A stretch of 64,000 nt of DNA from Microbispora sp. NBC_01189. GTDB taxonomy: Bacteria; Actinomycetota; Actinomycetes; Streptosporangiales; Streptosporangiaceae. Of this stretch, positions 8,501 to 20,772 are shown piece by piece (position 1 is the stretch's first letter; each line of letters starts with the position of its first letter). The position numbers and the translations under genes were made by a program. Where the stretch lies: positions 4,197,501-4,261,500 of the forward strand of contig NZ_CP108581.1 of assembly GCF_036010665.1 (NCBI RefSeq). The letters run 5' to 3'. The notes under the pieces were generated by a model, which was not told the origin of the DNA, searched no databases, and saw only the letters and a program-made list of their open reading frames with translations.

Positions 8501-9571
8501 GTGAGCGCCGCCATGAAGCCCTTTCCCGACTCGCGACAGTCGAGCCAGAATCCCGCGCGGACCTGGCCGCCGGTATCGGTGATCATGCCGGTGCTGAACG
8601 AGGAGCGGCACCTGCGCGACGCCGTACGGCAGGTCCTCGAACAGGACTACGAGGGCCCGCTTGAGGTCGTCATCAGCGTGGGCCCGTCCCACGACCGCAC
8701 CCAGGAGGTGGCCGACGCCATCGCGGCCGAGGACCGCCGCGTCGTCGTCGTGCCGAACCCCACCGGCCGCACGCCCAACGCGCTGAACGCCGCGATCGCC
8801 GCGTCCCGCAACCCGATCATCGCGCGGGTGGACGGGCACGCGATCCTGCCCCGCGACTACCTCCGTACGGCGGTCGAGACGCTGGAGCAGACCGGCGCCG
8901 ACAACGTCGGCGGCATCATGGCCGCCGAGGGGATCACGCCGTTCGAGCAGGCGGTCGCCTGCGCCATGACCTCGAAGATCGGCGTGGGCAACGCCCGGTT
9001 CCACACGGGCGGGGAGGCCGGCCCGGCCGACACCGTCTACCTGGGCGTCTTCCGCCGCAGCGCGCTCGACCGGGTGGGCGGCTACGACGAGCACTTCCAG
9101 CGCGCGCAGGACTGGGAGATGAACCACCGCATCCGGGAGACCGGCGGGCTGGTGTGGTTCCAGCCGAGGATGCGCGTCACCTACCGTCCCCGGCCCAACG
9201 TGCGCGCCCTGGCCAAGCAGTACTTCCACTACGGCCGCTGGCGGCGGGTCGTCTCCCGCACCCACCAGGGCACGATCAACCTGCGTTATCTCGCCCCGCC
9301 CGCCGCCGTCGCGGCGATGGCGCTGGGTCTGGTGGCCTCGCCCGTGTTCTGGCCCGGCCTGCTCATCCCCGGGGGCTATCTCGCGGCGATCGTCGCGGGC
9401 TCGGTCCTCACCGGCCGCCACCTGCCGCCCGCCGCGCTCGTACGCCTCCCGGTGGTGTACGCGGCCATGCACGTCTCGTGGGGGACCGGCTTCCTGACCA
9501 GCCCCCCGAAGCTCAGCAAGCCCCGTCCCAAGCCGGAACGGGCGAGCCTAGACGACCTTTTCGAAGACTGA
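8501..9571 (+). CDS. Glycosyltransferase family 2 with C-terminal membrane segments
   Basis: A GT-A fold transferase of 356 residues. It has the nucleotide-binding start VSVIMPVLNEERHL (near residue 25), D111 in RVDGHA in the DxD position, and a late RAQDWEMNHRIRETGG acceptor/catalytic segment, followed by two or three hydrophobic helices (residues ~265-330). Similar proteins make surface polysaccharides from nucleotide sugars at the inner membrane face. GTG 8501 and ATG 8513 are both possible starts, and neither has a strong ribosome-binding site. It is divergently placed from an LCP ligase, which supports a wall-polymer role. The last 24 nt overlap the convergent Uma2 gene. Confidence 0.85.
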   Translation: MSAAMKPFPDSRQSSQNPARTWPPVSVIMPVLNEERHLRDAVRQVLEQDYEGPLEVVISVGPSHDRTQEVADAIAAEDRRVVVVPNPTGRTPNALNAAIAASRNPIIARVDGHAILPRDYLRTAVETLEQTGADNVGGIMAAEGITPFEQAVACAMTSKIGVGNARFHTGGEAGPADTVYLGVFRRSALDRVGGYDEHFQRAQDWEMNHRIRETGGLVWFQPRMRVTYRPRPNVRALAKQYFHYGRWRRVVSRTHQGTINLRYLAPPAAVAAMALGLVASPVFWPGLLIPGGYLAAIVAGSVLTGRHLPPAALVRLPVVYAAMHVSWGTGFLTSPPKLSKPRPKPERASLDDLFED

Positions 9572-10204: not shown

Positions 10205-12082
10205 TCAGTCATGGGCGGACGGGGCGAGGGCTTCGAGGCCGAGGAAGCGGGCGCGTTCCCCGGCGCGGGCGGCGGCCCGCCGTACGGCCTCCTCGAAGCG
10301 GGCCAGCGGGTCCGGATGATCGGGGCCGAGCAGGTAGCCCCGCAGGGCGCGGCGGGCGCCGGCCATCTCGTCCTCTCCCGGGGCGTCCAGGCGGCGCAGG
10401 ATGCCCGGCAGCTCCGCAAGGCCGGGGCCGAGCAGATAGGCCGCCCCGGCGGCCGGGTAGCGCTCGCGGAAGCGGTCCCCCGGCAGGGCGGCCACGTTCG
10501 TCACGACGTACGGCTTGCCGCTGGCGACGAAGTCCGAAACCACGCTGGAGATGTCGGAGATCAGCACGTCGGCCTCGTTGAAGCAGTCGTACAGCGACGG
10601 CTCCCGGCCGGTCACGGCCACGTGGGGGATGCCGGTCCGCTCGCCCAGCAGCGCCATGATCCGCCGGTGGGCCGTCCGGGCCGCCGGGGAGCGGTGGCCG
10701 GTCAGCGGGTGGGGCTTGTAGATCACCCGCACCGGCTGCTCCAGCAGCGCGCGCACGATCGCGGGCCCCATCGCGTCGAGCGAGCTGTGGAACACGTCGT
10801 CGCTCCACCCCTCCCACGTCGGCGCGTACAGGACGGTCCGGTACGGCGCCGTGCCCTCGGCGTACGGGCCGGTGCGCCGGATCCCGGCGAGCTGCGGGCG
10901 GCCCACCTCCTCGACGGCCTCGTCCCGCACGCCCACCTGGGCGCGCAGGTAACGGTCGCGCCCGGCGGGCCCGGCCACCCAGACCTCGTCGTACACCTTC
11001 GTGTACGGATTGAACGACGCCTCCTTGTCGCTGTCGCCGTGGCCGATGAACACGCTGCGGACGCCCGGCACCCGCAGCATGTGGATGTTGTTGCCGACGT
11101 TGGCGGGAAACAGCGCGACCCGGACGCCGTCCAGCGCGCGGAAGTTCATGAGGTCCACCGACGAGGGGATGCACACCACCGGCAGCGTCGTCGGGCCGAG
11201 GGCCGCGGCGAGCGACCGCTCGCGCAGCACCACCAGCGTCCTCGGCCTGATCCGCTCCAGCGTGCCCAGCCACATCGTGGCCTGGTAGGCGGCTGTGGCC
11301 GGGCCGGAGAAGTACATGACGATCTCGGGCCGGTAGGCGGCGACCCACTCGTCCACGGCCGACAGGACGCGCCGCCGGTCGCCCAGGTGGGCGGCCCGCC
11401 GGGTGTGGACCAGCAGCGCGGCGGTGACGACGGCCTCCAGCGCCACGGCCGCGGCGGCGCCCGCGGCGCCCGCCCAGCCGAGGCCGGACGGCGCGAGGGC
11501 CGCCGCCGGCACGATCGCCAGCGCGTCGAGGTAGAGCGGGCGGGTGCCGCGCCAGGCGAGCAGCGCGCGGGGCGGCGCGGGCGGGATCGGCGGCGCGGCC
11601 AGACGGATGTTGCGCGTCACCACCGGCATCTGGTGGTGGACGCGGTCGAGCCGGCAGGCGAGCCAGGTCTGCGCGGCCCGCACGCCGTGGAACAGGAACA
11701 GCCCCGTCGCCAGCGCGGCGTACCACCACGGCCGTCCCGGCGCCAGCCGCGCCAGCAGCACCACGGCGGCGGTCTCCCGCGCGAGGAAGCGGACCGTCGC
11801 GCCCAGATGGGCCCGGCTCAGCGCCGCCGCCGCCCGGCCCGGCAGCGCCGCCTCCGCGGCGTACGACAGCGGCGCCAGCACCGCGAAGGTCGCGGGCAAC
11901 GGCCAGACGGCCGCCGCGAGCAGGGCCGGGTACGACGCGAGCGTCAGCGCCGTGAGCAGTCCTCTGCGTCCCCCGGCCAGCCTGCGCAGGCCCCGGCGCC
12001 CCCCGGCGGCCAGGGCCAGGCGGCGTGCGAACGGCGTGCGCCGCGCCTCGGAGGCGATGCGCCCCCTGATGTTTCCCCCCAT
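10205..12082 (-). CDS. CDP-glycerol:poly(glycerophosphate) glycerophosphotransferase-type polymerase (TagB/TagF-like) with N-terminal membrane domain
   Basis: This 625-residue enzyme should transfer glycerol- or ribitol-phosphate from its CDP form to a lipid-linked acceptor during teichoic-acid-like synthesis. Residues ~25-220 are hydrophobic helices rich in Ala/Leu. The rest is the Glyphos_transf domain, with IGHGDSDKEASFNPYTKVY (the conserved HGDS/HG-x-x-K region), VLYAPTWEGW, KPHPL and a late DISSVVSDFVASGKPY. These are the recognised family landmarks. It lies 34 nt downstream of the fused cytidylyltransferase/reductase gene on the same strand, so the donor enzyme and polymerase are probably one operon. 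Which polyol phosphate it uses cannot be read directly. Confidence 0.88.
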   Translation of the reverse strand: MGGNIRGRIASEARRTPFARRLALAAGGRRGLRRLAGGRRGLLTALTLASYPALLAAAVWPLPATFAVLAPLSYAAEAALPGRAAAALSRAHLGATVRFLARETAAVVLLARLAPGRPWWYAALATGLFLFHGVRAAQTWLACRLDRVHHQMPVVTRNIRLAAPPIPPAPPRALLAWRGTRPLYLDALAIVPAAALAPSGLGWAGAAGAAAAVALEAVVTAALLVHTRRAAHLGDRRRVLSAVDEWVAAYRPEIVMYFSGPATAAYQATMWLGTLERIRPRTLVVLRERSLAAALGPTTLPVVCIPSSVDLMNFRALDGVRVALFPANVGNNIHMLRVPGVRSVFIGHGDSDKEASFNPYTKVYDEVWVAGPAGRDRYLRAQVGVRDEAVEEVGRPQLAGIRRTGPYAEGTAPYRTVLYAPTWEGWSDDVFHSSLDAMGPAIVRALLEQPVRVIYKPHPLTGHRSPAARTAHRRIMALLGERTGIPHVAVTGREPSLYDCFNEADVLISDISSVVSDFVASGKPYVVTNVAALPGDRFRERYPAAGAAYLLGPGLAELPGILRRLDAPGEDEMAGARRALRGYLLGPDHPDPLARFEEAVRRAAARAGERARFLGLEALAPSAHD

Positions 12083-12116: not shown

Positions 12117-13523
12117 TCATCGGCTGAGCCGCACGTCCACGACCTGTCCCGTGAGACGGGACAGCAGCACGTCGAGGCTGGTGCGGGCGACGGCGGCGGG
12201 GGAGAGAAGCGTTCCGGCGGGTTCGTCGCCGAACGCGCGCAGCCGCATGGGGGTGGCGGTGCGCTCGGGGTTGACGCAGTTGACGCGGACGCCCTGGCAG
12301 GCCCACTCGTCGGCGAGCGCCTGGGTGAGGTTGACGACGGCGGCCTTGGTTGAGGAGTACAGGCTGTAGTCGGCGCGGCCGCGCGTGTAGGACGAGGACG
12401 TGTAGAGCAGCAGGTGGCCGTGGGTCTCCATCAGGTATTTCACCGAGGCGCGGGCGATGTTGACCGGGCCGAGGTAGTTGACGCCGATGGTCTCCTCGAT
12501 GGTGTGCTGCCCGGCCTCGCCGAGCCTGCCCATGTGCAGCACGCCCGCCGTGTTGACGACGTGGTCGATCCGGCCGGTCGCGGCGTACACGCGGGCGAGG
12601 GCGTCCTCGACGGCGGCGGCGTCCTCGACGCGCACGCCGTTCTCGCTGCGGGAGAACGAGTGGACGCTCGCGCCGTACCCCCGGGCGAGCGTGACGACGT
12701 CCGCGCCGATGCCGTAGCTACCGCCGAAGACCACGACGGTGCGGCCCTCCAGCCCGGCGCGGTACTGCTCGTCGGTCAGCGCGGGCGCGGTGTTCTCGGC
12801 GAGCTGGAAGAGCTTGTCGGCCAGGTAGACGTCGACCGGGTGAGTGACCTTCATGTTGCGCTCGCTGCCGGGCACGATGTAGATCGGCACGTCGGGCAGG
12901 TAGCGCAGCACCACGCCGCAGTCGTCGGTCGTCGGCAGGGAGGGGAACTCCGGGTCGGCCAGGGCGCGCTCGTACGCCGCCCGGATCACCGACAGCCGGA
13001 AGCACTGCGGGGTCTGCCCGCGGCGCAGCCGGGAGCGGTCGGGGATGTCACGGATGATCTCGCCGCGCGGGCCGGGGGCGGCCACGACGATCGTGTCGGA
13101 GGACGGGATCGCCACCTCGACCGCCTCGTAGCGGCCGAGGGCGGCCACGCACTCGCTGATGACGCGCGGCTCGATGAGCGGCCGGACCGCGTCGTGCAGC
13201 AGCACGTCGCACTCCCGCTCGCCCAGCGCGGACAGCGCCCGCCAGGTCGTCTCGGTGCGGCTCGCGCCTCCTTCGAGCACCCGGGAGACCTTCGCGTAGC
13301 CGCCCCGCCTGACGAGCTCCTCGGCGTCGGGGACGAAGCCGGGGGTCATCGCGACGATCACCTCGTCGATCTCCGGATGGCCGTCGAACACGTCGAGGGT
13401 GTGCTCCAGGATCGTCTTTCCGGCGATCTTCAGAAGCTGTTTCGGGGTGTTCAGCCCCACGCGCTGGCCGACGCCGCCGGCCAGCACGACCCCCACCCTG
13501 CGCAGACGCGATTCCGCGATCAT
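12117..13523 (-). CDS. Fused ribitol-5-phosphate cytidylyltransferase / ribulose-5-phosphate reductase (Bcs1/Acs1-like)
   Basis: The 468 residues contain two enzymes. Residues 1-240 are an IspD/TarI-type cytidylyltransferase (VVLAGGVGQRVG, then PKQLL, and LLHDAVRPL). Residues ~255-468 are a short-chain dehydrogenase with VVFGGSYGIGADV (cofactor loop), VVNTAGVLHMG, a catalytic Ser in YTSSSY, and YSSTKAA giving the Y-x3-K pair. The same domain order occurs in Haemophilus Bcs1/Acs1, which makes CDP-ribitol from ribulose-5-phosphate. CDP-ribitol would feed the polymerase encoded next. The ATG at 13523 follows a GGGGAGGA site. An MEP-pathway IspD role is unlikely because of the fused reductase and the neighbours. 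Confidence 0.85.
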   Translation of the reverse strand: MIAESRLRRVGVVLAGGVGQRVGLNTPKQLLKIAGKTILEHTLDVFDGHPEIDEVIVAMTPGFVPDAEELVRRGGYAKVSRVLEGGASRTETTWRALSALGERECDVLLHDAVRPLIEPRVISECVAALGRYEAVEVAIPSSDTIVVAAPGPRGEIIRDIPDRSRLRRGQTPQCFRLSVIRAAYERALADPEFPSLPTTDDCGVVLRYLPDVPIYIVPGSERNMKVTHPVDVYLADKLFQLAENTAPALTDEQYRAGLEGRTVVVFGGSYGIGADVVTLARGYGASVHSFSRSENGVRVEDAAAVEDALARVYAATGRIDHVVNTAGVLHMGRLGEAGQHTIEETIGVNYLGPVNIARASVKYLMETHGHLLLYTSSSYTRGRADYSLYSSTKAAVVNLTQALADEWACQGVRVNCVNPERTATPMRLRAFGDEPAGTLLSPAAVARTSLDVLLSRLTGQVVDVRLSR

Positions 13524-13609: not shown

Positions 13610-15259
13610 GTGAGCACGTGCGGCCAACGTGAAACGGGTTTCCATATGGGGGCGGATCCGAGCAAGCCCGGTACGTCACGGGACACACAGACGGTGGCGG
13701 TCGTCCTCGCGACCTCGCCGGCCGCCGGGCTGCCCTGCTCCGACGGCGCCAGGTCGGAGGGCAGCCTCCTGGAGCGGCTCGTCGCCCAGCTCCTCACCCT
13801 GCCGGTCCGCGAGGTGGTGATCGTGGTGAGAAGCCAGGACGGCTGGGAGGGCGAGCGAAGACAGATCGCGGCGGTCGGTCCGGGGCCGGAGGCCGCGGAC
13901 GGGCGGCGGCCGGGCCCGGCGGGCGGGCGGGAACGGGAGATCGGGAGCGGTCCGCGGCACCAGATCTGCGTGAGCGACGGCCTCGCCGAGGACCTGCGGA
14001 TCGTGGCCAAGGCGGCCCGCGCCTCGACCTCCCCGGTCGCCGTGCTGGCCGCCGACGTCGTCGCGCACACCGACGCGCTGGCCCTGCTGCTCGAACATCC
14101 CGCCCGCCCGACCGGCGCGATCGTCGCCGGCGGCGACCCGGCCCCGCTGCGGCCGCCCGTGCGGACGGAGTGGGGCCGTATCGTGTCGGCCGGCACCTCC
14201 TTCCACGAGGTCGAATGGGCCAACGGCACCTTCCGCGGCGTCCTCCAGGTCGGGGAGGCGCACCTCGCCGGGCTCGCCGACCTGGCCGAGGAGCTGGCCG
14301 ACCTCGCCCAGCGCCGCCACCTCGGGCGGGTGGGCGACACCGAGGTGCCCGAGCTGCTGCTCACCGGGCTCACCCGGGCGGGCGTCCCGGTGCACGCCGT
14401 CACACTGGGCGCGCTGCACTGCGGGCGGGTCGCGACCCGCCCGGCCGCCGAGCGGGCGGTGCGCGAGCTCGCCGACGTCGACGAGCCGCGGGCCCGGCTG
14501 GAGGCCGCCGTGAAGAGCGGAGACGGTTGCTTCACGACCTTCTGCGTCAGCTCGTGGTCCCGCCACCTGATCCGGCCGGCCGTACGGCTCGGCCTGACGC
14601 CCAACTCGATCACCGGCATCTCGGTCGCGTTCGCGCTCATCGCGGCCGTCTGGTTCTCCGACGGGCACCGGGCGGGGCTCGTCGTGGGGGCCGTCGCGTT
14701 CTACCTGTCGTTCGTGCTCGACTGCCTGGACGGCCAGGTCGCGCGGTACACGCGCCGGTTCTCCCCGCTCGGCGGCTGGCTCGACGCCATCTGCGACCGG
14801 ATCAAGGAGTACGTGGTCTACGTCGGGCTGGTGCTCGGCTACACCTCCGGCCCCGGGGAGTCCTGGCGGATCTGGGCCCTGGCCGTGGCCGCGCTGGTCC
14901 TGCAGACGATCCGGCACATGGTCGACTTCGCGTACGCCGGAGCGCTGGCCGACCGGGCGCGGGCGGCGAGCCTGCGGGCGGCGGCCCCGCGTTCGATGGC
15001 GGTGCCCTGGGACGAGGCCCCGGCGGCCGCCGCGGCCTCGGGCACCGGGTCGGTGCTGGCGCTGGCGCGGCGGCTCGACCGGGGTGTGGCCTACTGGCTG
15101 AAGAAGACGATCGTCCTGCCGATCGGGGAGCGGACCGCCCTGATCTGTGTCACGGCGGCGCTGTTCGACGCGCGGGTGACGTTCCTCGCGCTGCTCGGCT
15201 GGGGCGGGGTGGCGCTCGCCTACACGGCCGCCGGGCGGATGGCCAGGTCCTTCGCATGA
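13610..15259 (+). CDS. Nucleotidyltransferase-like domain fused to CDP-alcohol phosphotransferase
   Basis: A two-part protein of 549 residues from GTG 13610 (ATG 13646 is the alternative). Residues ~25-290 resemble a nucleotidyltransferase fold but lack the G-x-G-x-R loop, so that part may be inactive. Residues ~310-540 are a polytopic CDP-alcohol phosphotransferase with the full motif D-x2-DG-x2-AR-x8-G-x3-D-x3-D (D371, D374, G375, A378, R379, G388, D392, D396). It should move a phospho-alcohol from a CDP donor to an acceptor alcohol in the membrane. The layout recalls archaeal IPCT/DIPPS fusions, which make inositol phosphodiesters. It overlaps the next gene by ATGA, opening a six-gene operon. 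Confidence 0.78.
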   Translation: MSTCGQRETGFHMGADPSKPGTSRDTQTVAVVLATSPAAGLPCSDGARSEGSLLERLVAQLLTLPVREVVIVVRSQDGWEGERRQIAAVGPGPEAADGRRPGPAGGREREIGSGPRHQICVSDGLAEDLRIVAKAARASTSPVAVLAADVVAHTDALALLLEHPARPTGAIVAGGDPAPLRPPVRTEWGRIVSAGTSFHEVEWANGTFRGVLQVGEAHLAGLADLAEELADLAQRRHLGRVGDTEVPELLLTGLTRAGVPVHAVTLGALHCGRVATRPAAERAVRELADVDEPRARLEAAVKSGDGCFTTFCVSSWSRHLIRPAVRLGLTPNSITGISVAFALIAAVWFSDGHRAGLVVGAVAFYLSFVLDCLDGQVARYTRRFSPLGGWLDAICDRIKEYVVYVGLVLGYTSGPGESWRIWALAVAALVLQTIRHMVDFAYAGALADRARAASLRAAAPRSMAVPWDEAPAAAAASGTGSVLALARRLDRGVAYWLKKTIVLPIGERTALICVTAALFDARVTFLALLGWGGVALAYTAAGRMARSFA

Positions 15260-15945
15260 GCCGCCCCGCCCATGACGCCGCCCGCGACACTGCCCACGAC
15301 GCCGCTCGGGAGGGCTCCGACGTGATCTCCGTCCACATGACCCCGGTGCCGCGCAGCGTCGTGGTCGCCCAGCGCGACGACGGCCCGCTGTCGCGGGCGA
15401 TGGGGCTGCTCGTCGCCGGGCAGCTGCCGCCCCTGCCGCCCGCGCTCGCCGGAGCGTTCGTGACCGCCGTGCTGCTGGTCCTCGGCATCGCCGGGGCCGA
15501 CGACTTCGCGGTCTTCGCGCCCGCGATCGCCCTGCTGCTCGCCGGGGCGGGCAGCGCGCACCGGCACGACGGGCGGCTCGACTGGCTGGCGCCCCCGATC
15601 CTGCGCCTGACGGAGTACGGCTTCGTCGCCTCCGCCGGGTTCGCCCGCTCGGTGCCGCCCGTGATCACCTTCGCGCTGCTCGGCGCGATGGCCTTCCACC
15701 ACTACGACATCGTCTACCGGGTGCGTCAGCACGTGTATCCACCGCCGTGGCTGGCCACGGCGGGGCTCGGCTGGGACGGCCGAATGCTCGTCGTCGCCCT
15801 GGCCGGCCTGCTCGATATGGTGGCTCCCGCGTTCGTCCTGCTCGCGCTCTACCTGTGGGGACTGTTCGGCTGGGAGAGCCTGACCTGCTGGCTGGCCGCC
15901 CCCCGCACACCCGACCAGGCGGTGGAACCGGCTCCCCAGGATTAA
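15256..15945 (+). CDS. DUF5941-like polytopic membrane protein
   Basis: The 229-residue product has a short polar N-terminus, then hydrophobic helices near residues 60-105 and 130-215, including VPPVITFALLGAMAFHHYD and a YRVRQHVYPPPWLA loop. I associate this sequence type with DUF5941, which in Streptomyces accompanies or is fused to CDP-alcohol phosphotransferases; that assignment is from memory and not certain. The ATG overlaps the upstream stop (ATGA), so the two proteins should be made in equal amounts and probably work together in the membrane. No catalytic motif was identified. Confidence 0.65.
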   Translation: MSRPAHDAARDTAHDAAREGSDVISVHMTPVPRSVVVAQRDDGPLSRAMGLLVAGQLPPLPPALAGAFVTAVLLVLGIAGADDFAVFAPAIALLLAGAGSAHRHDGRLDWLAPPILRLTEYGFVASAGFARSVPPVITFALLGAMAFHHYDIVYRVRQHVYPPPWLATAGLGWDGRMLVVALAGLLDMVAPAFVLLALYLWGLFGWESLTCWLAAPRTPDQAVEPAPQD

Positions 15946-16038
15946 CGTCAGACCAACGGCGGATTACCCAAGTGCGGCCCCGGGCCAACTAACCTTTGGG
16001 TTTACTGTCTGACGCTCGACCTCAAGGAGTGCGGGAAA

Positions 16039-16770
16039 TTGCTCGGAATGGTGCTGGCCGCCGGAGCCGGACGTCGCCTGCGGCCGTACACCGACACGCT
16101 GCCCAAGGCGCTGGTGCCGGTCGACGGTGAGACCACGATCCTCGACATCGCCCTGCGCAACCTGGCGGCCGTGGACCTGCGCGAGGTCGTCGTCATCGTC
16201 GGCTACCAGGCCCAGGCCGTACGGGAGCGCCAGGCCGACCTGGAGCGCCGCCACGGCGTGTCGCTGACGCTGGTGCACAACGACAAGGCCGAGGAGTGGA
16301 ACAACGCCTACTCGCTGTGGTGCGCGCGTGACCACTTCTCGCGGGGCGCGCTGCTGGTCAACGGCGACACCGTCCACCCGGAGTCGGTGGAGCGGACCCT
16401 GCTGGCCGCCGAGGACACCTCCGACATCCTGCTCGCCGTGGACGACGTGAAGTCCCTGGCCGAGGAGGAGATGAAGGTCACACTGGAGGACGGCCGGCTG
16501 AAGCGGATCACCAAGCTGATGGACCCCGCCGAGGCGTACGGCGAGTACATCGGCGCCACGCTGATCCGGCCCGGCGCGGCCGAGCGGCTGGCCGACGCGT
16601 TGCGGGCCACCTTCGAGCGGGACCCGCAGCTCTACTACGAGGACGGCTACCAGGAGATGGTCCGGCGCGGCGAGACCATCTCCGTGGCGCCGATCGGGAA
16701 GGTCGACTGGGTCGAGGTGGACAACCACGACGACCTCGCGAAGGCCCGTGAGATCGCGTGCCGTTACTGA
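16039..16770 (+). CDS. Nucleotidyltransferase (LicC / inositol-phosphate cytidylyltransferase-like)
   Basis: The 243-residue protein has an intact nucleotidyltransferase signature, MVLAAGAGRRLRPYT followed by LPKALVPV, and a metal-site Asp in LLVNGDTVH. The segment EEWNNAYSLW matches the N-x-YSL motif of choline-phosphate (LicC) and inositol-phosphate cytidylyltransferases rather than hexose-1-phosphate enzymes. It therefore probably activates a small phospho-alcohol with CTP. TTG 16039 has AAGGAG ten bases upstream; ATG 16048 is an alternative. The next gene makes glycerol-1-phosphate, so sn-glycerol-1-phosphate is a reasonable candidate substrate (inference). Confidence 0.8.
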   Translation: MLGMVLAAGAGRRLRPYTDTLPKALVPVDGETTILDIALRNLAAVDLREVVVIVGYQAQAVRERQADLERRHGVSLTLVHNDKAEEWNNAYSLWCARDHFSRGALLVNGDTVHPESVERTLLAAEDTSDILLAVDDVKSLAEEEMKVTLEDGRLKRITKLMDPAEAYGEYIGATLIRPGAAERLADALRATFERDPQLYYEDGYQEMVRRGETISVAPIGKVDWVEVDNHDDLAKAREIACRY

Positions 16771-16796
16771 TTTCCGTGGCCTTCTGAGGAGTTCGC

Positions 16797-17855
16797 ATGC
16801 CGATTCTGGCAAGGATGCTCCCCGCCCCCCTCACGATGGAGGTGCGGCGGGGCGCGATCGCGCAACTCGGCACCCTGCTGGCCGACAGCCGGGTGGCCAC
16901 CTCCGGGCAGGTCGCGGTCGCGGTCGGCCCGAACCAGGGGGACCGGATCACCGAGGTCATCACGCCGTCGCTCGGTGACGCCAAGGTCTTCCGGGTCGCC
17001 GATGGAACGGTCGACGCGGCCATCGCGCTCGGCGCCGACCTGCGCAAGGGCGCGTTCGAGGCGGTCGTCGGGATCGGCGGCGGCAAGACGATCGACGCCA
17101 CCAAGTACGCCGCCTCGCTCGCCGGGATCCCGATGGTCGCGGTGGCCACCAACCTCTCGCACGACGGCATCTGCTCGCCGGTGGCCTCCCTCGTCCACGA
17201 CGGGGGCAAGCCGTCGTTCGGCGTGCCGATGCCGCTGGCGATCATGGTGGACCTCGACTTCGTCCACGACGCGCCGCCGTCCCTGGTGAGCGCCGGGGTC
17301 GGCGACGTGGTGAGCAACCTGTCGGCGATCGAGGACTGGCAGCTGAGCCGGGCCGAGCGCGGCGAACCCGTCGACGGGGTGGCGGTCGCCATGGCCCGTA
17401 CGGCGGCGGAGGCGGTGCTGGGCAGGTCGGACTCCATCGAGTCGGACGCGTTCCTGACCGTGCTCGCCGAGGCGCTGATCCTGTCGGGCATGTCGATGGT
17501 CATCGCGGGGTCGAGCCGTCCGGCGAGTGGCGGAGATCATGAGATCATGCATGCCGTGGACCAGCTCTTCCCCGGGACCGCCAATCACGGCGAGCTGGCC
17601 GGCGTCGGCGCGGCCTTCTGCTTCTTCCTCCGGGAGGACTCCCACCGGCTCGGCCAGATCACCGGCTGCCTGCGGCAGCACCGGCTGCCCGTCACACCGG
17701 GCGACGTCGGCCTGACGCACGAGCAGTTCACCGAGGCCGTCCTGCTGGCCCCGAGCACGCGGCCCGGCCGCTACACCATCCTTGAGCACCTCCGGCTGTC
17801 GGAGCCCGAGGTCCGCGCGAGAGTTGAGGACTATGTCCGCGCCGTCGGTAGCTGA
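16797..17855 (+). CDS. sn-Glycerol-1-phosphate dehydrogenase (EgsA/AraM-like)
   Basis: This 352-residue enzyme belongs to the iron/zinc-dependent alcohol-dehydrogenase superfamily. It carries the features of NAD(P)-dependent glycerol-1-phosphate dehydrogenase: VGIGGGKTIDATKYAA (nucleotide binding, G94-K97), NLSHDGICSP, and metal ligands D170 (GVGD), H248 (SGGDHEIMHA) and H264 (NHGELAG). The reaction is dihydroxyacetone phosphate to sn-glycerol-1-phosphate, the stereoisomer used in archaeal lipids. Bacillus AraM is the best known bacterial example. ATG 16797 follows GAGGAG. It is flanked by a nucleotidyltransferase and a CDP-alcohol transferase whose start overlaps it by 23 nt, so it most likely supplies their substrate. 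Confidence 0.85.
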   Translation: MPILARMLPAPLTMEVRRGAIAQLGTLLADSRVATSGQVAVAVGPNQGDRITEVITPSLGDAKVFRVADGTVDAAIALGADLRKGAFEAVVGIGGGKTIDATKYAASLAGIPMVAVATNLSHDGICSPVASLVHDGGKPSFGVPMPLAIMVDLDFVHDAPPSLVSAGVGDVVSNLSAIEDWQLSRAERGEPVDGVAVAMARTAAEAVLGRSDSIESDAFLTVLAEALILSGMSMVIAGSSRPASGGDHEIMHAVDQLFPGTANHGELAGVGAAFCFFLREDSHRLGQITGCLRQHRLPVTPGDVGLTHEQFTEAVLLAPSTRPGRYTILEHLRLSEPEVRARVEDYVRAVGS

Positions 17856-18591
17856 GCTTCGCGCGGTCGCCCAGCCGCAGACCACCATGGACCGCCGCAG
17901 CGGCGAGCACTGGGCAGGCCTGCTGTACATGCGGCGGCTGTCCATCTACGCCACCTGGCTGCTGGCCAAGACGCCCGTCACCCCCAACCAGGTCACCGGC
18001 CTGATGATTCTTTGCGGGGTGGCGGCGGGCGCCGTCCTCGCCCTGCCCGGGCTCTGGGCGGCGCTGGCCGCGGCCCTGCTGATCCAGGTCTACCTGCTGC
18101 TCGACTGCTCGGACGGCGAGCTGGCCCGCTGGACCGGCCGCACCTCGATCACCGGGGTCTACCTCGACCGGGTCGGGCACTACTTCGCCGAGGCGGCGCT
18201 GCTGATCGGCCTGGGCTTCCGGGCGTCGGAGACGCTGCCCGACTGGTACACGGTCATGGGCGTGGCGGCGGCGCTGGGCGCGATCCTGATCAAGGCGGAG
18301 ACCGACCTGGTCGACGTGGCCCGCGCGCGGTCCGGCCTGGTCGCGACCACCGAGGCGGCGGCGCAGCAGTTCGCCTCACCGCGGCTCGCGCTGGCCCGCC
18401 GGGCGGCGGCGGCGCTGCGGTTCCACCGGGTGATCCAGGCCGTCGAGCTGTCGCTGATCGTCGTGGCCGCGGCGGTGCTGGACAACTGGTTCTCCGCCAC
18501 CCGGATCCTCATGGTCGCCTGCGTCGTCATCGCCGTGGTCCAGCTCGTGCTGCACCTGGTCAGCATCCTCGCCTCCCGGCGGCTGTCGTGA
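17833..18591 (+). CDS. CDP-alcohol phosphotransferase with His replacing the fourth motif Asp
   Basis: The 252-residue membrane protein has the family motif at residues 91-116: D91, D94, G95, A98, R99, G108 and D112 are in exact register, but the position of the last Asp, usually the catalytic base, is H116 (LDRVGHY). About six hydrophobic helices follow the family pattern. ATG 17833 lies inside the dehydrogenase gene behind GAGGA. It should transfer a phospho-alcohol from CDP, but the Asp-to-His change means altered chemistry, altered metal use or loss of activity. Location right after the glycerol-1-phosphate dehydrogenase suggests a glycerol-phosphate donor. Confidence 0.8.
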   Translation: MSAPSVAELRAVAQPQTTMDRRSGEHWAGLLYMRRLSIYATWLLAKTPVTPNQVTGLMILCGVAAGAVLALPGLWAALAAALLIQVYLLLDCSDGELARWTGRTSITGVYLDRVGHYFAEAALLIGLGFRASETLPDWYTVMGVAAALGAILIKAETDLVDVARARSGLVATTEAAAQQFASPRLALARRAAAALRFHRVIQAVELSLIVVAAAVLDNWFSATRILMVACVVIAVVQLVLHLVSILASRRLS

Positions 18592-18765
18592 CGGGGGCGG
18601 CGCGGCGTGCCGATCGCTCGTACATCCGCGGTTGGGTGGGGGTTTGGTGGCAGTTCCGATACCCTTGTGCCACGGTAAACCAGGCAGCTCCCGGATCGCC
18701 CGGCCATACAGACTCGGTGAACATGAAGTCGTGTGCAGTGCGCCCCGCGTCGAGGCGATGACGCG

Positions 18766-19647
18766 GTGAAGATCTCCTGTGTCATCCTCACCATGGGCAA
18801 CAGGATCGCCGAGCTCGACCGGGCGGTGGAGTCCGCGCTCACGCAGACCGACGGCGACATCGAGGTGGTCGTCGTCGGGAACGGCGCCGACGTCCCGGAG
18901 CTGACCGCCGCGCCGCCGCCGGGCACCTCGGCGACGATCAAGACCGTCCGGCTGGAGCACAACGCGGGCATTCCCGAGGGGCGCAACCGGGGCGTGCAGG
19001 AGTGCTCCGGCGACATCGTCCTGTTCCTCGACGACGACGGCTGGTACGCCAACTCCAAGGTGGCCGCGCACGTCCGCGAGCGGTTCACGCACGAGCCCGA
19101 CCTCGCGGTGATCTCCTTCCGGGTGATGGACCCCGAGGGCGGCCTGGTGCAGCGGCGCCACGTTCCCCGCCTGCGGGCCGGAGACCCCGAGCGCTCCTCT
19201 CCGGTGACGACCTTCCTGGGCGGCGCCTGCGCCATCCGCAAGTCGGCGTTCCTCCAGGTCGGCGGGTTGCCCGAGCGGTTCTTCTACGCCCACGAGGAGA
19301 CCGACCTGGCCTGGCGGCTACTCGGCGAGGGCTACCGCATCGAGTACGACGCCGAGACGGTGATGTACCACCCGCTGGTGCTGCCGAGCCGGCACACGCA
19401 CTTCTACCGCCTGAACGCCCGCAACCGGGTGTGGCTGGCCCGCCGCAACCTGCCGTGGCCGCTCGCCACGCTCTACCTGCTCAACTGGATGGTGCTCACG
19501 CTCGTGCGGGAGCGGTCGCTGCCCGCCGTCAGGGCGTGGTTCGGCGGGTTCGTGGAAGGGGTGCGTGAGCCGGCGGGCGAGCGCCGCCCGATGGCCTGGC
19601 GCACCGCCTGGCGCATGCTCCGCCTCGGCCGCCCTCCCATCGTCTGA
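18766..19647 (+). CDS. Glycosyltransferase family 2
   Basis: The 293-residue GT-A enzyme starts with ISCVILTMGNR and contains EHNAGIPEGRNRG, a metal-binding DDD (89-91), GGACAIRKSAFLQVGG and HEETDLAWRL (the ED-type acceptor motif). The layout is that of rhamnosyl- or galactofuranosyl-like transferases acting on lipid-linked acceptors. GTG 18766 is chosen because it opens directly into the conserved first strand. A 174-nt gap separates it from the CDP-alcohol transferase, so it may have its own promoter, but the common strand suggests it decorates the product of that operon. A single hydrophobic segment near the end may anchor it. Confidence 0.85.
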   Translation: MKISCVILTMGNRIAELDRAVESALTQTDGDIEVVVVGNGADVPELTAAPPPGTSATIKTVRLEHNAGIPEGRNRGVQECSGDIVLFLDDDGWYANSKVAAHVRERFTHEPDLAVISFRVMDPEGGLVQRRHVPRLRAGDPERSSPVTTFLGGACAIRKSAFLQVGGLPERFFYAHEETDLAWRLLGEGYRIEYDAETVMYHPLVLPSRHTHFYRLNARNRVWLARRNLPWPLATLYLLNWMVLTLVRERSLPAVRAWFGGFVEGVREPAGERRPMAWRTAWRMLRLGRPPIV

Positions 19648-19797: not shown

Positions 19798-20772
19798 GTG
19801 GGATTGCCGGCTCATCGCGAACGACTCCGCGTCCTCGTCGAAACGCCGGCCTTCCAACGGGTGGTCATCGCGGTCATCGCGCTGAACGCGGTGACGCTCG
19901 GGCTGGAGACGTCGCCCGAACTGGCCGACCGCCACGCCACGGCCTTCCTCGTGGTCGACCGGGTCATCATCGCGATCTTCGTCGTCGAGCTCCTCGCCCG
20001 GATCTCCGCGCACGGGAAGGCCTTCTTCCGCGACCCCTGGAACTGGTTCGACCTGATCATCGTGGGCGCCGCGCTCGTGCCGGCCTCGGAGTCGCTGTCG
20101 ATCCTGCGGCTCTTCCGGTTCCTGCGCGTCCTGCGGCTGATCTCCGTGGTGCCGGGCATGCGGCGGGTCGTCTCCGCGCTGTTCACCGCGATTCCGGGTC
20201 TGGCCTCGGCGCTGGTCCTCCTGCTGCTGTCGCTCTACATGGCGGCCGTGATCGGCGAACAGCTCTTCCGCGAGGCGGCCCCGAAGTACTTCGGAGATCT
20301 CGGGACGTCGCTGTTCACCATGTTCACGGTGCTCACGGTCGAGAACTGGCCACAGATCGCCGAGGACGTGATGGTCAAGGAGCCGATGGCCTGGATCTTC
20401 TTCGCCACCTTCATCGTGATCACGGCGTTCTTCGTCCTCAACCTCCTCATCGGCGTGATCGTCTCCGCGATGGAGGCGGAGGTCAACGCCGCGCGGTGGG
20501 AGGAGGACCAGGCGCTGGAGCTGGAGCAGCACACGGCGGTGATGAACGAGATCCGGGCGCTGAACGAGAGGATCGACCGGCTGACGGCCGCCCTGCCCGC
20601 CTCCGCCGCCGCCCGCGCGGCCCCCGGTGACGCTCCTCGCGCGGGACCCGGCGAGGGCCCTCATGCGGCGGCCGCCGACGCCCCTCGCGGCGCGCTCGCC
20701 ACCGAGCCCGAGGCCGTGGAACCCGGCGACCCACCGGAAGAGGAGCTCTGCTCCTACCACCGGGACTCATGA
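19798..20772 (+). CDS. Voltage-gated ion channel, NavBac-like single-domain
   Basis: A 324-residue six-helix channel subunit that should form homotetramers. The S4 voltage sensor shows arginines every third residue (R104, R107, R110, R113 in ILRLFRFLRVLRL). The pore helix and filter read FTVLTVENWPQ, in register with TLESW of NavBac sodium channels but with V181 and N183. S6 is IVITAFFVLNLLIGVIV, followed by an acidic coiled-coil-like segment (EEDQALELEQH) and a Pro/Ala-rich tail. The GTG at 19798 is the likely start. Ion selectivity is probably sodium, judged from the Glu at 182, but this is not certain for this filter. Confidence 0.85.
   Translation: MGLPAHRERLRVLVETPAFQRVVIAVIALNAVTLGLETSPELADRHATAFLVVDRVIIAIFVVELLARISAHGKAFFRDPWNWFDLIIVGAALVPASESLSILRLFRFLRVLRLISVVPGMRRVVSALFTAIPGLASALVLLLLSLYMAAVIGEQLFREAAPKYFGDLGTSLFTMFTVLTVENWPQIAEDVMVKEPMAWIFFATFIVITAFFVLNLLIGVIVSAMEAEVNAARWEEDQALELEQHTAVMNEIRALNERIDRLTAALPASAAARAAPGDAPRAGPGEGPHAAAADAPRGALATEPEAVEPGDPPEEELCSYHRDS

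Follow-up and report, generated by a model that had tools for sequence, protein, structure and literature searches.

What does an actinomycete make with an operon that places a dehydrogenase of the archaeal glycerol-1-phosphate type beside a relative of the cytidylyltransferases? We pursued this question in Microbispora sp. NBC_01189, using a window of 64,000 nucleotides (contig NZ_CP108581.1, positions 4,197,501 to 4,261,500; assembly GCF_036010665.1) that sits in a 7.37-Mb single-contig genome. The operon encodes two proteins with CDP-alcohol phosphotransferase domains (CAT1 and CAT2), a DUF5941 protein, a nucleotidyltransferase (NTP), a predicted sn-glycerol-1-phosphate dehydrogenase (G1PDH), and a GT2 glycosyltransferase, and its core is the NTP-G1PDH pair. 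We consider it reasonably probable that this pair makes CDP-1-glycerol, which is the enantiomer of the usual CDP-glycerol, and that the product is built into a wall glycopolymer exported by TagGH. Specifically, G1PDH would convert dihydroxyacetone phosphate to sn-glycerol-1-phosphate (G1P), and the LicC-like NTP would convert G1P with CTP to CDP-1-glycerol. CAT1 and CAT2, with the DUF5941 protein, would then transfer glycerol-1-phosphate to a membrane-bound acceptor, a step that TagF-like and perhaps LicD-like enzymes would perform in other lineages, and GT2 would add sugar, the end product forming part of a teichoic-acid-like wall glycopolymer that leaves the cell through TagGH.

Co-occurrence of the nucleotidyltransferase and the dehydrogenase

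A preliminary description of the locus had proposed searching genomes for co-occurrence of its genes. We ran this search on 393 genomes of the class, each at least 90% complete, in which G1PDH orthologues were defined by a best E-value ≤ 1e-90 (weaker matches being excluded from the counts) and NTP orthologues by an E-value ≤ 1e-30 (all observed values were ≤ 1.7e-81). The two genes proved to be related nearly one-to-one. G1PDH orthologues were present in 105 of the 393 genomes, and NTP orthologues in 104 of those 105 and nowhere else, counts that, like those given below for TagD and PF04464, carry no correction for ancestry. The sole genome with G1PDH only (G112) was one in which this gene begins at base 119 of its contig. 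In 105 of 106 places, NTP immediately preceded G1PDH in the same orientation, and in 93 of these the overlap was identical. Among the matches listed, 43 of the 104 NTP-bearing genomes came from a Streptomyces-like family, here labeled f20. NTP was the better conserved partner in many loci (e.g., 76% versus 59% identity in L121), while L116 reversed this pattern (60% versus 63%). Additionally, in a phylum-wide sample of 256 genomes, used to examine NTP and G1PDH outside the class, three genomes from other classes had NTP at 58-60% identity, and all three also had G1PDH.

Extra G1PDH copies were observed in some f20 genomes (L135, L137, and L139), accompanied by NTP in L135 and L139. Neighbors of the extra copy in L139 matched RNase E, ribosomal protein L21, and Obg, and the same clusters were present in L135 and L137; the extra copies adjoin those genes and not the CAT/TagGH operon. 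An NTP-like gene of about 33% identity (L157, 6317-7039), which is probably a paralogue with another substrate, occurred in a small genome that gave no G1PDH match.

Identity of the dehydrogenase

By score, the dehydrogenase is assigned to the EgsA/AraM family of G1P dehydrogenases. The NCBIfam model PRK00843 matched residues 11-336 of 352 with 244 bits, versus 55 bits for the glycerol dehydrogenase model and under 47 for the remaining listed models. Four distant orthologues behaved likewise, with 226-250 bits for the G1PDH model and 54-88 for glycerol dehydrogenase. Among 113 homologues, D170 was conserved in 112 and both H248 and H264 in all 113; we take these residues to be the Asp, His, His metal ligands. 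The GGGxxxD stretch was kept in 112-113 of these homologues (motif counts here and below exclude homologues under 200 bits for NTP and G1PDH, 150 for CAT1, and 120 for CAT2). The product predicted from this assignment is G1P, as opposed to its enantiomer, glycerol-3-phosphate.

These model scores and conserved residues argue against a quite unlikely alternative, in which the dehydrogenase reduces some other ketone, NTP activates the resulting alcohol phosphate, and G1P is a family-level guess. That alternative draws on the fact that 244 bits falls below the curated PRK00843 equivalog cut-off of 413, on a top PDB match labeled glycerol dehydrogenase (3ce9, 6e-43), and on Bacillus subtilis AraM being the sole characterized bacterial case named in the portions of PMC13400652 used here. 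The PDB matches following 3ce9, at nearly equal E-values, were G1PDH chains (4rgq, 4rfl, and 5fb3).

Identity of the nucleotidyltransferase

NTP resembles, in sequence and predicted fold, the cytidylyltransferases of small phospho-alcohols. Its best PDB profile matches were LicC (1jyk, 3.1e-19), the IPCT of T. maritima, as identified by the structure title (4jd0, 5.3e-17), and PntC (6pd1, 2.6e-14). The predicted structure had a predicted local distance difference test score (pLDDT) of 94.8, and its first five Foldseek rows were all cytidylyltransferases (LicC, IPCT, and PntC), of which IPCT had the highest TM-score of any row listed (0.84, versus 0.74 for LicC). A GxGxR...PK signature was present in 111 of 111 homologues. 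Because LicC, IPCT, and PntC are its nearest solved relatives and folds, NTP most likely activates the product of the dehydrogenase with CTP.

NCBI names the protein 'phosphocholine cytidylyltransferase family protein' (L151, 12001-12753), and LicC is its best solved relative by E-value. It is nevertheless very improbable that NTP is a phosphocholine cytidylyltransferase unrelated to the dehydrogenase product, given that its orthologues occurred only with G1PDH in the 393 genomes, nearly always adjoining it, and that the TM-score favors IPCT. The linkage to G1PDH disfavors the phosphocholine reading, and because of it the NCBI label is probably misleading. The chain proposed in the preliminary description, from dihydroxyacetone phosphate through G1P to a CDP-activated form, is well supported by the genomics and is the best reading of the co-occurrence and adjacency of the pair together with the NTP fold, from which the G1P enantiomer and the use of CTP are predicted.

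TagD, PF04464, and PcrB in pair-bearing genomes

We compared the distribution of the pair with that of TagD and of the TagF-type domain PF04464, for which strong matches were defined by E-values ≤ 1e-30 (TIGR01518) and ≤ 1e-60, respectively. Strong TagD was present in 33 of the 393 genomes and in none of the 105 pair-bearing genomes, where 8.8 would be expected if the two were independent. Strong PF04464, in contrast, was found in 98 of the 105 pair-bearing genomes versus 52 of the 288 others. Within family f26 (33 genomes listed), the pair was present in three genomes, TagD in 24, and both in none. The best TagD match in the window's own genome was an HldE-like gene at 40 bits.

The AraM of Bacillus is a G1P dehydrogenase of the same family, and its G1P is used for ether lipid in B. 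subtilis (PMC13400652, as far as consulted). Moreover, Coleman et al. (PMC6431249), in the parts that we drew on, report that some Streptomyces carry all three archaeal-type genes and suggest that these species may make archaeal-like lipids, and actinobacterial G1PDH is treated in a lipid context there and in the portions used of PMC5059525. Flow of G1P into archaeal-type ether lipids via PcrB/GGGPS is nonetheless exceedingly improbable for the operon considered here, as PcrB exceeded its cut-off in none of the 40 pair-bearing genomes tested (11 from f20, and the window's genome included), while controls gave matches in seven of 14, five of them over the cut-off. For these 40 genomes we reject ether-lipid use of G1P.

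Genomic company of the pair and a possible wall polymer

A scan of named genomes gave 138 confirmed places, of which the best 80 were retained (hereafter the 80 named loci); by name nearly all belong to one family, and the flanks of some end at contig ends, which affects counts of neighbors. The closest named relatives by G1PDH identity were Sphaerimonospora and Microbispora, and of 60 relatives, 41 gave a G1PDH match, a distant one in a single case. The order CAT1-DUF5941-NTP-G1PDH-CAT2-GT2 and its single strand were kept in 80 of 80 named loci, which is more than chance would give; one of these loci (L089) has a 3.2-kb insert.

Farther afield, the company of the pair varied. We inspected 32 chosen regions surrounding distant pair members (12 from f20), in which a simple gene caller, used solely to locate neighbors, got some genes wrong and returned none for L126, and some neighbors were checked against Pfam. 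TagH homologues were found in 17 of these regions, TagG homologues in 15, and CAT2 homologues over 120 bits in 20. A different CDP-alcohol transferase was located near the pair in L121. In L118, the pair was accompanied by TagF-like genes (PF04464 2.1e-100, within a GT2 fusion) as well as glycerophosphodiesterase, UDP-galactopyranose mutase, and LCP-like matches, and in L126 by a weaker TagF-like gene (PF04464 5e-13). A GlfT2-like galactofuranosyltransferase and a weak, partial LicD match were located near the pair in L124 (4516-14111), which suggests that family f26 makes a polymer containing galactofuranose. Neither CAT1 nor CAT2 was matched in the L118, L126, and L124 stretches. The feature common to CDP-alcohol transferases and the TagF-like and LicD-like families is a CDP-alcohol-type donor.

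A wall polymer is suggested by the TagF-like and TagGH neighbors seen in other families, and the window's own genome has a TagG-TagH pair elsewhere. It also encodes strong PF04464 proteins at two loci, in one case with GT2 domains. On a Streptomyces replicon, S. fungicidicus p1, an ABC permease and ATPase follow the operon. The preliminary description had proposed a membrane-linked phosphodiester, either a wall polymer or a lipid headgroup; of the two, an exported wall glycopolymer is the probable outcome. In S. roseosporus, tagG is linked to wall phenotypes, and loss of a TagG exporter impairs sporulation and osmotic behavior, according to the sections of PMC10269677 consulted.

The S. fungicidicus p1 operon and its ABC exporter genes stand directly upstream of hpnC, hpnD, hpnE, and shc, and the same start of this gene order was seen in L131 (12.8-16.7 kb).

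Several observations, in addition to the missed equivalog cut-off, the 3ce9 label, and the uncorrected ancestry of the counts, weigh against the synthesis of CDP-1-glycerol by the pair for a TagGH-exported polymer. In the NTP fold ranking, UDP- and dTDP-sugar enzymes came close behind the cytidylyltransferases. The pairing is not absolute: NTP and G1PDH were about 15 kb apart in G520 and about 10 kb apart in L125, and L137 had no NTP near G1PDH. NTP-like genes at 33-39% identity occurred in three genomes of other classes, two of which (G465 and G427) had G1PDH; the link is looser outside the close orthologues because no G1PDH was found in the third (G429, 33% identity). The exclusion of TagD is no clean swap because 32 of 150 strong-TagF genomes had neither the pair nor strong TagD. 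Furthermore, f20 genomes had TagD-like matches of 60-70 bits, one of which, at 68 bits, was on examination equally near HldE domain II and TagD, and f20 may have a second source, making CDP-3-glycerol. Finally, TagG and TagH homologues were present in the flanks of none of the 80 named loci, that is, the window's relatives.

The transferases of the operon

The preliminary description had called CAT1 a CDP-alcohol transferase fusion. Its CDP-alcohol phosphotransferase domain is indeed present, but the long N-terminal domain is not recognizable as a nucleotidyltransferase; a PDB profile search for such a fold remained at chance level (best E-value 0.009), and this candidate was rejected. In Streptomyces-type loci, the CAT1 domain and DUF5941 are in one gene: a single reading frame spans both matches in L131 (7462-9264), and S. 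fungicidicus p1 has one annotated CAT1-DUF5941 gene directly upstream of the cytidylyltransferase. The predicted fold of the fusion had a mean pLDDT of 44 and was not used.

The CDP-alcohol phosphotransferase motif reads DxxDGxxAR...GxxxDxxxD, and its fourth Asp is thought, from work on AF2299, to be the catalytic base. CAT1 retained this Asp in 92 of 93 homologues with the motif, which was not located in two of 95. In CAT2, by contrast, the fourth position was His in 71, Ala in 30, and Asp in none of 101 homologues, and His was again present in three further sequences from other classes. Ala was found in the loci of Nonomuraea and in eight from f20; a ninth f20 locus (L140) had His. The closest solved structure to CAT2 is AF2299 (4o6m, profile E-value 4.4e-19). 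The missing fourth Asp runs counter to a simple reading of CAT2, from its sequence, as an ordinary CDP-alcohol phosphotransferase; CAT2 could use an acceptor for which no base is needed, such as a lipid phosphate, or be a non-catalytic partner, or rely on a substitute residue. Under the first of these options, the acceptor would need no deprotonation and the product would be a glycerol-diphospho-lipid starter. That CDP-1-glycerol from the pair gives rise to mirror-image wall polymers in this particular manner, with a base-less CAT2 moving G1P onto a polyprenyl phosphate-like acceptor, is a conjecture that we think unlikely.

The transferases also bear on a rather unlikely alternative, whereby CDP-1-glycerol is made but the CDP-alcohol transferases build a lipid headgroup or small phosphodiester, akin to archaetidyl- or glycerophosphoinositol, and not a wall polymer. 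CAT1 scores on archaetidylinositol- and phosphatidylinositol-phosphate synthase models and on IPCT/DIPPS, yet with only 64-67 bits against cut-offs of 170-180, and CAT1 was rejected as a phosphatidylinositol- or archaetidylinositol-phosphate synthase on these scores. The affinity of CAT2 to AF2299 and the missing TagGH near the operon in the window's relatives fit a headgroup, whereas TagGH is frequent near the pair elsewhere, and the pair stands with TagF-like (L118 and L126) or GlfT2-type and weakly LicD-like genes (L124) where neither CAT was found.

Layout of the operon and its neighbors

The six plus-strand genes with overlaps or short gaps that the preliminary description had reported were all recovered (Table 1). 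CAT1 and DUF5941 overlap by 4 bp and G1PDH and CAT2 by 23 bp; the gaps are 26 bp between NTP and G1PDH, 93 bp between DUF5941 and NTP, and about 174 bp between CAT2 and GT2. The fused gene upstream of CAT1 had ribitol-5-phosphate cytidylyltransferase 1 as its best PDB match (6xhp, 7.3e-27) and, because of this best solved relative, is likely involved in CDP-ribitol synthesis. In all 78 named loci that have this gene, it lay upstream of CAT1 and was transcribed divergently from it.

Table 1. Genes of the operon and its surroundings in the window, with homologues among the 80 named loci where counted
Feature	Position	Strand	Domain or model match	Named loci with homologue
GT2 glycosyltransferase, neighbor	8501-9571	+	PF00535 4.5e-22	77/80
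TagF-like CDP-polyol phosphotransferase, weak	10205-12082	-	PF04464 6e-10, 39 bits	50/80
TarI/IspD-type cytidylyltransferase fused to short-chain dehydrogenase/reductase (SDR)	12117-13523	-	PF01128 8e-46, PF00106 7.8e-29	78/80
CAT1, N-terminal domain of ~290 aa plus CDP-alcohol phosphotransferase domain	13610 (GTG) or 13646 (ATG) to 15259	+	PF01066 5.8e-12 (residues 320-429 of the reading starting at 13640)	
DUF5941 protein	15256-15945	+	PF19365 3.5e-25	
NTP, LicC/PntC/IPCT-type nucleotidyltransferase, TTG start	16039-16770	+	PF00483, PF12804	
G1PDH, EgsA/AraM family	16797-17855	+	PRK00843 2e-72	
CAT2, CDP-alcohol phosphotransferase-like	17833-18591	+	PF01066 3.4e-8 (meets the gathering score)	
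GT2 glycosyltransferase	18766 (approx.; alternative start 18733) to 19647	+	PF00535 1.3e-17	80/80
Ion-transport-type channel, right after the operon	19798-20772	+	PF00520 5e-47	5/80 (fetched flanks)

Relation to known systems

The proposed pathway resembles the TagD/TagF wall teichoic acid pathway, which uses CDP-3-glycerol, in its CDP-glycerol donor, its TagF-like transferases, and the TagGH genes beside the pair in many relatives. However, the donor would be supplied here by G1PDH and a LicC-fold enzyme as opposed to GpsA and TagD, the opposite enantiomer is expected, and strong TagD and the pair did not coincide. Activation of G1P with CTP and a CDP-alcohol phosphotransferase step are shared with glycerophosphoinositol synthesis in Archaeoglobus (a G1P-preferring cytidylyltransferase, IPCT/DIPPS, and AF2299), while the present case offers a candidate gene that is bacterial, paired with G1PDH, and often placed among wall genes. 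NTP shares its fold and sequence family with LicC, PntC, and IPCT, whose substrates are small phospho-alcohols or phosphonates, but differs from them in having G1PDH as a near-obligate partner. The divergent neighbor of CAT1, a TarI-like enzyme with SDR, presumably matches the architecture of Acs1/Bcs1 and TarI-TarJ CDP-ribitol synthesis and would be a separate enzyme for a second CDP-polyol beside the G1P operon.

Fukutin is, we assume, of the LicD kind. It accepts CDP-1-glycerol, according to the parts of PMC8587909 used here, and the compound is mentioned in the consulted parts of PMC11666461 only as the enantiomer that the polymerase studied there does not use. The Discussion of PMC8262930 (2021), to the extent drawn on, considers CDP-1-glycerol likely absent from bacteria and calls the enzyme that makes it in A. 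fulgidus "as-yet-unidentified". The same paper reports that Cps3D, a TagF-like polymerase specific for Gro3P, showed no activity with CDP-1-glycerol. The preliminary description had taken the pathway to be undescribed, and this needs qualification in that part of the Streptomyces synteny is already in print: PMC13118837 reports a CDP-alcohol phosphatidyltransferase, a GT2, and a nucleotidyltransferase syntenic with araM, tagG, tagH, and crtB, with no pathway proposed in the portions used here. Nor did we find, in the portions of the open-licence literature consulted, a proposal of CDP-1-glycerol synthesis by NTP and G1PDH. What would be new is the variant CDP-glycerol supply.

Implications

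In Streptomyces-like bacteria, NTP and G1PDH probably make the archaeal form of CDP-glycerol, and the neighboring genes suggest its incorporation into the wall. The pair provides a concrete gene candidate for the CDP-1-glycerol-making enzyme. CAT2 also represents a family of CDP-alcohol transferases that lacks the usual base and, if it acts as conjectured above, possibly a new transferase step. More broadly, if the proposed pathway holds, the 'archaeal' glycerophosphate enantiomer would gain a bacterial use beyond ether lipids, and the stereochemistry of actinomycete wall polymers becomes directly testable.

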